DNA from: Methanoregula sp.
Lineage (GTDB): Archaea; Halobacteriota; Methanomicrobia; Methanomicrobiales; Methanospirillaceae
Reading direction: 5' to 3'
Length of the DNA: 64,000 nt
Assembly (NCBI RefSeq): GCF_028679125.1
Contig: NZ_JAJRCG010000008.1
Span: forward strand, 62,001 to 126,000
How positions within the stretch are numbered: position 1 is the first letter of the stretch; each line of letters starts with the position of its first letter. The translations under genes and the position numbers were made by a program. The notes beneath the pieces are model-generated. The model made no database searches. It had not been told where the DNA came from and worked only from the letters and a program-made list of their open reading frames with translations. This document shows, in pieces, positions 27,652 to 35,032 of this stretch.

Positions 27652-28365
27652 ATGGACCCGGTTATTGCACGCATCCGGTATGAGCTGGAAAACCAGGCTG
27701 ATCCTGAAATTCAGAAGACCTCAAAACGGTTCTTCAAGGAAGAGATCCGGTGCTATGGAATGAAGACGGCGACGGTGATTGCGCTTGCCAAGAAGTTCTG
27801 GAAAGAGATCCAAGGTCGCCCAAAACCGGAGATCTTTACTCTGTGCGAAGAACTCTATCAGTCCGGATACATGGAGGAGTCATTCATTGTTTCAGAATGG
27901 GCTCACGCCCTTTCCGGACGTTACGAAAGAGAGGATCTCGCTGTGTTCCGACGCTGGATCGATACCTACATCACGAACTGGGCGTCGTGCGATGGTTTCT
28001 GCAATCATACCATGGGCGACTTCATCGAACAGTACCCGGAATATATCGATGAACTGAAACACTGGGCGCTGTCGGAGAACCGGTGGATGCGCCGGGCCGC
28101 GGCGGTGTCTCTCATTATTCCCGCCAAACATGGAGAGTTCCCGGTTGAGGCCATGGAAATCGCCGATCTGCTCCTCACAGATCCTGATGATATGGTGCAG
28201 AAAGGTTATGGCTGGCTCCTCAAAGAGGTGAGCCGGAAGCACACGAATGAGGTCTTCTCGTACGTGATGAAGAACAAACAGGTGATGCCCCGGACAGCGC
28301 TACGGTACGCGATCGAGCTGATGCCAAAGGAGCTCAAGGCCGATGCAATGAGGAAGGACTGGTAG
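27652..28365 (+). CDS. AlkD-type DNA alkylation repair glycosylase
   Basis: The 237-residue all-helical HEAT-like protein has the AlkD family features: FFKEEIRCYGMKTATVIALA near the N-terminus, then SEWAHAL, the catalytic NWASCDGFCNH stretch (Trp and Asp as in the W-x3-D motif) near residue 118, and RWMRRAAAVSLIIP near residue 145. AlkD enzymes excise N3- and N7-alkylpurines from DNA without flipping the base, tolerating bulky adducts. A family start motif is preserved with the ATG used. The gene is convergent with the aquaporin gene and does not appear to belong to an operon. Confidence 0.88.
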   Translation: MDPVIARIRYELENQADPEIQKTSKRFFKEEIRCYGMKTATVIALAKKFWKEIQGRPKPEIFTLCEELYQSGYMEESFIVSEWAHALSGRYEREDLAVFRRWIDTYITNWASCDGFCNHTMGDFIEQYPEYIDELKHWALSENRWMRRAAAVSLIIPAKHGEFPVEAMEIADLLLTDPDDMVQKGYGWLLKEVSRKHTNEVFSYVMKNKQVMPRTALRYAIELMPKELKADAMRKDW

Positions 28366-29078: not shown

Positions 29079-29248
29079 ATGAATACCACCTACCCCGGTT
29101 TTTCCGGTCAGTGGTTGTCAACCTCCGGGTTTATACAGGTATCGTGATTCCTGACCGATGTAAAGGTGGTTCTCGCGGCATAACTAAGAGCAAAACCACA
29201 ATTATCGCCAGATTTAACTGACCGTCCCGCCTACGGTGAGTTATGCAA

Positions 29249-30570
29249 ATGGCGGTAGGGAGAGGACTTGTCATCACCGTGCTGATCTTTGTTGGGGTGG
29301 TCCTCGCTGGAGTGCCGGAATTTCCGGGAGCACAGACGGGCAGACTATCCCCGCCGCCACCCAACCCCCTTCATCCACGTATACAACACCAGTACCTGGG
29401 ATACCCGCATCAGAAAGTAATTCGGATGTTACGCTTGCCAACAACCGGTTTGCGGCTGACCTGTATCGCCAGCTCGCAACAGATCCCGCATCTTCAGGAT
29501 CGAATATCTTCTTCTCATCATTCTCCATCTCATCCGCACTTGCGATCACGTACGAAGGGGCACGCGGGACAACGGCTGACGAGATCCGGTCGGTCTTTCA
29601 CCTCCCGGCAAACGATACTGCACGAAGGCTCGGATTTGCCACAACAATTGATCATCTCAACCAGCCCGATACCGGGTATACGCTGAAGATGGCAAATGCA
29701 CTCTGGGCCGAGAAGAACTACACATTCCTCCCGGCGTATCGCAGTACTGCCGGAACATATTACTCAGCCAATACCACTAACCTTGATTTTATCAACCAGC
29801 CCGATACTTCCCGCCTCACGATCAACCGGTGGGTAGAGGACAAGACTGCCAACAAGATACGGGATCTGTTGCCGACAGGTTCCATCGATCCCATGACCCG
29901 GCTCGTGATAACAAACGCAGTCTATTTCAAGGGATCCTGGGTGAGACAATTCGATGCGAACAAGACGCGGGATGCAGAATTTCAGGTCGCACCCGGCAAG
30001 ACCGTGACGGTCAAAATGATGCAGCGGACGGACGAGGAGGCCGTGTATTCCTATGCCGTTACCGGAGATCTCCAGAGGCTGGCAATGCCGTACACCCACT
30101 CCAGCGGTAAGGGTCTTTCAATGATCGTCCTTCTGCCTGCGACAGATAACCTGTCCGCTGCAGAACAGTATCTCGACCCGGAGAGACTCTCCTCACTGGA
30201 ACAGAGCGCTTCATTGCAGCGCGTGGATGTGTACATCCCGAAATTTACCCTGGAGACCAAATATCAGCTTCAGCCAGTCCTTTCTGTAATGGGGATGCCG
30301 GCTGCCTTTTCCGATACTGCCGACTTCTCGGGTATGGACGGGAAACAGGATCTGGTTATCAGCGATGTAATCCACAAAGCGTACGTGGATGTGAACGAGG
30401 AGGGGACGCAAGCTGCTGCTACGACCGCCGTTGTCGTGGTGGAAGCTGCCAGGGAGAACCCAAAAATTCCCGTGTTCAGGTCAGATCACCCCTTCGTCTT
30501 CCTGATCCAGGATAATGATTCCGGAACGATACTCTTTACCGGTCGTGTTGTCAACCCGACAGGAGCGTAA
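29249..30570 (+). CDS. Serpin, lipoprotein signal out of frame (frameshift near 29311)
   Basis: The frame from about 29312 to the stop encodes a full serpin: NRFAADLYRQLATDPASSGS (helix A), NIFFSSFSISSALAITYEGA, ITNAVYFKGSW, and the closing HPFVFLIQDNDSGTILFTGR. The reactive-loop hinge EEGTQAAATTAVVVVEAARE has the small-residue pattern of inhibitory serpins; P1 would fall near Glu-Ala, Ala-Ala or Ala-Arg. The N-terminal signal MAVGRGLVITVLIFVGVVLAG is in another frame. A single missing T, GGA(T)GTGCC, would join them as a lipobox LAGC followed by AGISGSTDG and a Thr/Pro linker. The intended product is thus a surface-anchored protease inhibitor. As given, the gene is broken unless recoding, an alternative start or sequencing error explains it. 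Confidence 0.75.
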
Positions 30571-33540: not shown

Positions 33541-34146
33541 TTATCGAATGATGGGTGTAATCCCAAGATTTTTCAGGAACTGCTCTTGAAGGCGGGTATC
33601 ATCGCAGAGTTCGGGATGGAACGATAATGCCATGTGTTTTCCCTGTTCCACAGCAACGATGCCCTGATCAATACGCGCCCGCACGTTCACCCGGGTGCCT
33701 GCAGATGTAACAACCGGAGCCCGGATAAAGATCGCATGGAATGGAGCTCCCTGCAGACCATCTATCGCAAGATCCATCTCGAAGGACTCTCTCTGCCTCC
33801 CGAACGCGTTCCGATCTACGGTGATATCGATGAGCCCGAGCGGGTGGATCCGGGGGTCATCCACGCTTGTCGCCATCAGCACCATGCCGGCGCAGGTGGC
33901 AAAGATCCCACCGTTGAAGCTGCGGATCGGTTCGTAGAGGCCGTTCTTATCGATGAGACGGGAGATGGTGGTGGATTCCCCGCCCGGCAGGGCAAGGGCA
34001 TTGCAGTGAACCAGATCCGCAGGGCTCCTCACTTCGAAGACTTCGGATGAGGGGCCGTGACCCATCCGTTCAAGCGCCCGGAGAAACGCATCGATATGCT
34101 CGCTCACGTTTCCCTGGAGCGCCAGTACGCCGATCTTAGCGTCCAC
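33541..34146 (-). CDS. pdxT: Pyridoxal 5'-phosphate synthase glutaminase subunit
   Basis: The 201-residue class I glutamine amidotransferase has [20 protein letters not shown], the oxyanion segment [14 protein letters not shown], the nucleophile [11 protein letters not shown] and a C-terminal [11 protein letters not shown] with the catalytic His/Glu. It hydrolyses glutamine and feeds ammonia to PdxS. I chose the GTG at 34146: GAGGTG sits upstream at a good distance, and the normal family N-terminus ([11 protein letters not shown]) begins there. This start overlaps the pdxS stop by 11 bases, indicating translational coupling. Longer in-frame starts extend into pdxS. Confidence 0.93.
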
Positions 34147-35032
34147 GGGTCTGAAGCACCTCGTCATCACGGAGCTTGTGGACATCGAGACCCGGCATTG
34201 CATCGCCAAGGCCCTTGCTGACCTTTGCGATCACGTTTGCATCATCGAAGTGGTTGACCGCCTCGACAATGGCTTTTGCCATCAGCTCGGGATTGGTGGA
34301 CTTGAAGATACCGGACCCGACAAAGACACCGTCGGCACCCAGCTGCATCATGAGGGCAGCATCCGAAGGTGTGGCGATACCGCCTGCCGAGAAGTTCACG
34401 ACCGGCAGCCTGGCACGCTCGGCACATTCATAGACCAGTTCCGCGGGGGCTTCGATCTCGCGGGCATAATCGGTCATCTCCTGCTTGTCAAGGCCGCGGA
34501 GCATCCGGATCTCGCCCATGATGTTGCGCATGTGGCGGACGGCTTCCACAACGTTTCCGGTACCGGCCTCACCCTTGGTCCGGATCATTGCCGCACCTTC
34601 GTTGATCCTGCGGAGTGCTTCGCCGAGATCGCGTGCACCGCAGACAAAGGGGACCTTGAACTGTTTCTTATCGATATGGTATTGTTCATCGGCGGGGGTC
34701 AGAACCTCGCTCTCGTCGATCATGTCAACGCCGAGAACTTCCAGTACCTGGGCTTCGACAAAGTGTCCGATCCGCACCTTTCCCATCACCGGGATCGAAA
34801 CCGCATCGATGATCTCAAGGACTTTCTCGGGATCCGCCATGCGTGCGACTCCGCCCATTTTCCTGATATCGGACGGCACACGCTCCAGCGACATGACTGC
34901 GACTGCCCCGGCTTCCTCGGCAATCTTCGCCTGTTCGGCATTGACGACATCCATGATAACACCCCCTTTCTGCATGGATGCAAAGCCGCGCTTGAGGAGC
35001 TCAGTGCCAAATCTCAGTTCTTCCAGCTTCAT
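34136..35032 (-). CDS. pdxS: Pyridoxal 5'-phosphate synthase lyase subunit
   Basis: The 298-residue TIM barrel is highly conserved: [37 protein letters not shown] with the catalytic Lys, then [20 protein letters not shown] and [20 protein letters not shown]. It condenses ribose 5-phosphate, glyceraldehyde 3-phosphate and ammonia from PdxT into PLP in one active site, as a dodecamer. The ATG overlaps the end of cbiB by four bases. PLP made here serves the aminotransferase encoded in the next cluster upstream, among other enzymes. Confidence 0.97.

Follow-up and report, generated by a model that had tools for sequence, protein, structure and literature searches.

A lipoprotein-type serpin gene of Methanoregula sp. 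with its signal out of frame, probably a recent inactivation

A signal and a serpin body in adjacent frames

In a 64,000-nucleotide stretch of Methanoregula sp. DNA (the window), a lipoprotein-type signal stands directly before a serpin body, one frame away from it. Is this gene broken in the cell, is the break an error of the sequence, or do cells make use of the offset? The features around the break, in window coordinates, are as follows.

29236..30570, forward strand: serpin ORF of 444 aa, from a GTG start to the stop at 30570
29236..29238, forward strand: GTG, the sole ATG, GTG or TTG codon of the serpin frame upstream of Met 29689 (scanned from 29218)
29437..30558, forward strand: serpin domain, residues 68-441, PF00079 profile match
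29243..29311, forward strand: ATG-led signal segment, MQMAVGRGLVITVLIFVGVVLAG, in the frame next to the serpin's, ending directly 5' of the expected lipobox cysteine
29311..29312, forward strand: parting of the frames by one base at the lipobox cysteine codon, placed by comparing the frames and by relatives at the same locus, which are in frame
29312..29333, forward strand: imperfect inverted repeat directly 3' of the break, containing CCGGAATTTCCGG at 29315-29327

By searching PF00079, we found a whole-domain match covering profile positions 2-370 of 370, with 384.8 bits against a curated cut-off of 27 (E 6e-115); an NCBIfam search at E 0.001 returned no family for this serpin. The body of the ORF is otherwise clean, the frame break being the sole lesion that we saw. 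As for the signal, MQMAVGRGLVITVLIFVGVVLAG has a short n-region followed by a long hydrophobic stretch and LAG, and the best 14-residue hydropathy is 3.21 in the signal frame versus 0.11 in the serpin frame. Past 29311, the signal frame stays open but encodes an unrelated sequence (the whole ORF has 147 aa), so in this assembly the signal and its lipobox cysteine are not in frame with the mature protein. We could thereby confirm what a preliminary description of this DNA had noticed, namely a lipobox-type signal and a serpin body in adjacent frames with a one-base offset at 29311/29312; the lipobox is in frame in relatives. Its coordinates are also right, with the serpin ORF beginning 13 bases upstream of the start that it gave (29249), an ATG that shares its frame with ATG 29243.

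To see how often such an arrangement arises by chance, we scanned 864 kb of this genome, in which 716 ORFs reach 120 aa or more. Only 3/716 had an ATG-led, strongly hydrophobic, out-of-frame segment near the start. The window serpin is one of them, and the other two, judged by eye, seem to be over-extended ORFs.

Relatives at the locus and in the genus

The interval that holds the serpin is bordered by two genes.

27652..28365, forward strand: gene for an AlkD-like protein of DNA alkylation repair, left border (PF08713 and synteny)
33541..34209, reverse strand: gene called pdxT, right border (synteny)

We take the right-border gene to be pdxT, a provisional name. Besides the serpin, the interval in the window contains a gene resembling aquaporin Z, a ribonucleotide reductase and a small ORF. 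The alkD-pdxT spacing is variable, from 67 to 8142 bases among 30 genomes, and in one further case (G007) a serpin piece adjoins pdxT at a contig end.

Thirty genomes have alkD and pdxT on a single contig, and in 7 of them, the window's genome counted, a serpin lies in between. The preliminary description had proposed comparing related genomes. In the other six (L004, L007, L009, L010, L011 and L012), which are the relatives with a serpin between these two genes and a readable start, the signal and its lipobox are in frame in 6/6 cases, and the core identity with the window serpin is 61-69%. These six therefore share the place of the window gene and differ from it in having the lipobox in frame, which makes it very likely that the ancestral, working product at this locus was a surface lipoprotein serpin. 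By its sequence, the window gene is an ordinary member of the serpin family with a frame break that is private to the window genome among the genomes compared.

In a tree, the locus serpins were not monophyletic: L004 and L007 were placed close to the window copy, at a node with support of 0.23, and L009-L012 elsewhere, while three non-syntenic serpins (L005, L006 and L008) were nearer to the window copy than L009-L012. Thus, the locus has no simple line of descent.

Across the genus, we found serpin matches in 18/39 genomes, the window's genome counted. An in-frame lipobox was present in 20/25 serpin rows whose upstream frame was read; these 25 come from 36 match rows, with short fragments, second pieces of copies already read and rows without a fetched locus omitted. 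The five rows without an in-frame lipobox are the window gene and four rows of a single genome, G032, one of them a startless fragment. By using a hydropathy threshold on 107 locus rows, duplicates included, we scored 93 with the signal in frame, 9 with none and 5 out of frame; 5 more locus rows without an N-terminus stand outside the 107. The five out-of-frame rows are the window gene (two), G032 copies (two) and L106. In this last case, an Elusimicrobia serpin whose signal was scored out of frame, the match begins only at query residue 92, and the frame may be misplaced because the match starts so late.

We consider it probable (roughly 0.6) that the window gene is a recent pseudogene, in which a one-base change at the lipobox codon split the signal from the serpin body. 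It would be this genome's copy of the lipoprotein serpin found between alkD and pdxT in several species of the genus, and the change at the cysteine codon would have left signal peptide and serpin body in different frames. The same genome keeps, on contig C5, an intact paralog, a lipoprotein serpin with an in-frame VSGC lipobox (G000:C5:11015-12229). Given that the copies in related species are intact, ordinary recent breakage is most likely, and a sequence error possible, rather than a new mechanism.

Selection on the window copy

We then compared codon positions at sites where L004 = L007, with the window serpin as the third sequence. The window copy differed at codon positions 1/2/3 by 0.166/0.135/0.426; the like figures are 0.091, 0.080 and 0.346 for L007 and 0.068, 0.061 and 0.295 for L004. 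The excess at third positions shows that the serpin frame was earlier under purifying selection, a little weaker on the window copy than on L004 and L007. Also, the terminal branch of the window copy (0.31) is longer than those of L007 (0.20) and L004 (0.13) and shorter than that of L023 (0.45). Finally, the window copy departs at 4/86 otherwise invariant columns, the third highest count, tied, of 20; two of these departures are in the hinge and one is at the proline of an FSPxS stretch. At ORF residue 95, the window serpin has S in place of a P shared by the 26 other sequences of alignment A1. Together, these data give weak hints of relaxed constraint on the window copy.

A real break or an error of the sequence

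A local sequencing or assembly error, with an intact gene for an ordinary lipoprotein serpin in the living cell, would agree with several of these observations: apart from the break the serpin frame shows no lesion, it bears the mark of earlier purifying selection, the signal is in frame in 6/6 locus relatives, and the break adjoins a hairpin-forming inverted repeat. In RNA folding of 29290-29350 we obtained z = -2.48, with 5/200 shuffles as stable or more, and the inverted repeat at 29312..29333 may be a hot spot for either deletion or read error. However, there is no homopolymer at the break, and a comparison of matched genes left no frameshift after inspection.

For that comparison, we aligned 1063 ORFs of G035 with 864 kb of the window genome (G000), in which 237 were well matched and 2 looked shifted, and ORFs of G032 with the same 864 kb, in which 77 were matched and 1 looked shifted. 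On inspection by eye, all 3 candidates in G000 were gene-border ORFs, either run-on or antisense. With none left of 237, the rule of three puts frameshifted genes at under about 1.3%, in a test that requires two aligned pieces and is blind to breaks near gene ends, that of the window serpin included. For most of the 716 ORFs, the reference stretch contained no counterpart, and the reverse comparison, of G000 ORFs with G035, gave a raw count of 3/229 that looked shifted. With no surviving frameshift among the 237 matched genes, a generally poor assembly is unlikely, and we rejected a high general frameshift rate (0/237 after inspection), gene-end breaks standing outside the test. An isolated error would look identical to a real break; we favour the latter about two to one and regard the error as possible though rather unlikely. 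We infer that the break is present in the living cell and abolishes the function of the gene.

Possible starts, recoding and phase variation

If the break is real, what would be translated? The ATG at 29243 is well placed and, used as a start, would give a short nonsense product, which makes the gene most likely inactive. Translation from GTG 29236 would give a serpin led by about 25 out-of-frame residues, without a signal and hence unexported. Such a cytoplasmic serpin draws on GTG 29236 being the only usual start in its frame before Met 29689, and on the hypothesis, published in PMC8233489, of intracellular roles for ancestral-like prokaryotic serpins. However, by eye we saw no ribosome-site-like sequence upstream of 29236, whereas ATG 29243, preceded by GGTGAGTT, follows directly after the GTG. 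In addition, the protein would have those 25 or so residues at its front, and PMC8233489 also gives N-terminal transport peptides to most prokaryotic serpins. We therefore hold a cytoplasmic product to be improbable.

Programmed -1 ribosomal frameshifting could in principle join signal and serpin and control export. First, the offset is -1 and a stable hairpin lies beside the break. Second, an archaeal -1 case is documented in a fucosidase gene and others are reported for some archaeal viruses, according to PMC8211752. Third, in two near-identical serpin copies of G032 the signal is likewise displaced by one frame, and to the same side. The Sulfolobus fucosidase gene resembles the window serpin in being archaeal and in having two frames with a -1 offset, but it has a slippery heptamer (PMC8211752), whereas the window signal has no slip-capable codon. 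Indeed, a codon test for -1 re-pairing found none from 29243 to before 29327. The first weak candidate is GGA 29327, downstream of the lipobox, where a slip would skip the lipobox cysteine, and other weak candidates lie further downstream. Moreover, recoding is unneeded in 6/6 locus relatives, G032 looks frameshift-rich in the regions sampled, and its L030 copy is offset in the other direction. With no slippery sequence and the break conserved in 0/6 locus relatives, we rejected programmed frameshifting, which we judge highly improbable. The corresponding switch, in which a -1 slip after the signal would yield an exported form and GTG 29236 a cytoplasmic one, is just as hard to credit; if it were true, the similar offset of the two G032 copies would be convergent use of the switch.

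The frame change sits at the signal of a surface-protein gene, a place that would suit phase variation through slipped-strand change. However, the break has no repeat tract: on scanning 29200-29400, the single-base runs of at least 4 were GGGG at 29294, CCCC at 29349 and CCCCC at 29365, all of them away from the break. Since the signal has no slip-capable codon and the break no repeat tract, neither programmed frameshifting nor phase variation finds support. Phase variation was rejected, with no repeat tract at the break and 6/6 locus relatives in frame, and appears very improbable. The preliminary description had left a choice between inactivation, phase variation and error; inactivation emerges as the best of these, and phase variation, on the two grounds just given, is not supported.

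Hinge, fold and likely activity of working copies

The hinge and the loop are placed as follows.

30397..30495, forward strand: hinge and reactive-centre loop region, EEGTQAAATTAVVVVEAARENPKIPVFRSDHPF, placed by alignment, with loop residues 393-408 at pLDDT below 50

The inhibitory hinge motif at P17-P9 is ExGTEAAAA, as given in PMC8233489. The window hinge, EEGTQAAAT, fits it at 7/9 positions, with Q in place of E at P13 and T in place of A at P9; T at P9 occurs in L036 too. The hinge would thus be mostly of the inhibitory type that the preliminary description saw, with departures at P13 and P9. Compared with prokaryotic members of PF00079, the window serpin has the same full-length domain match, the same fold and a hinge that is canonical at most positions, and differs in its out-of-frame signal, in these two residues and in the S at ORF residue 95.

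An AlphaFold model had a pLDDT of 79.7 and a pTM of 0.79, with the domain mostly at pLDDT 80-95 and residues 1-60 below 50. By structure comparison, the best 50 of 569 matches were solved serpins, judged by their titles or names (E 1.9e-37 to 5.8e-33). Chloropin, a bacterial serpin (PDB 8gxv), was the top solved chain by sequence (E 1.1e-74), with MENT (2dut) nearly level, and its fold matched the model with a TMt of 0.90 and 36% identity, at rank 18 among the best 50 of 569. The solved chloropin chain consists of the serpin domain and a few residues only (match 8-375 of 375). Judging from the family, the working relatives most likely inhibit extracellular serine or cysteine proteases from the cell surface: they would be exported, held there by a lipid anchor, and would use the suicide mechanism of serpins to trap such proteases.

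Serpins in the order and decayed copies in the genus

Prokaryotic serpins are called scarce, and their roles obscure, in PMC8233489. The preliminary description had likewise called archaeal serpins uncommon. We found PF00079 in 99/199 sampled genomes of the order (72/132 of those of good quality; 27/38 genera), and the statement therefore fails in this order. Many carriers in the order have 2-3 copies, some of them close together (G080, G101, G118 and G078). Literature searches on archaeal or methanogen, prokaryotic and Methanosarcina serpins returned no report of a Methanoregula serpin among the titles and abstract starts listed, and a search for serpin with Methanoregula found no paper. Taken alone, the window gene is one broken accessory gene. 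In the genus, most readable serpin copies appear to be surface lipoproteins (20/25 rows), some at a shared locus, and the serpins of genus and order make a clear archaeal set for functional tests.

Further serpin copies of the genus show decay or other oddities. G032, a single contig (G032:C1), has 10 serpin match rows, mostly fragments (among them L017, L026, L030 and L032). In two near-identical copies the signal is displaced by one frame, close to a GGGG run; in a third, L030, the displacement is in the opposite direction. In a shift test of this genome, 4/50 and 4/73 matched genes looked shifted, at 6 distinct places, a rate biased by the choice of 5/20 fetched stretches for their serpins; two of the places, at 142-143 kb, resemble gene borders, and G or C runs lie close to three. 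Because other G032 genes also look shifted, read errors are possible there. In G034, a second copy (G034:C1:97285-98483; L025 and L031) has an internal TGA and a frame change with its lipobox signal intact and in frame, and is a decayed gene. Last, the sole serpin match of G004 is a 34-residue relic of a serpin C-terminus (G004:C73:36482-36583; L020).
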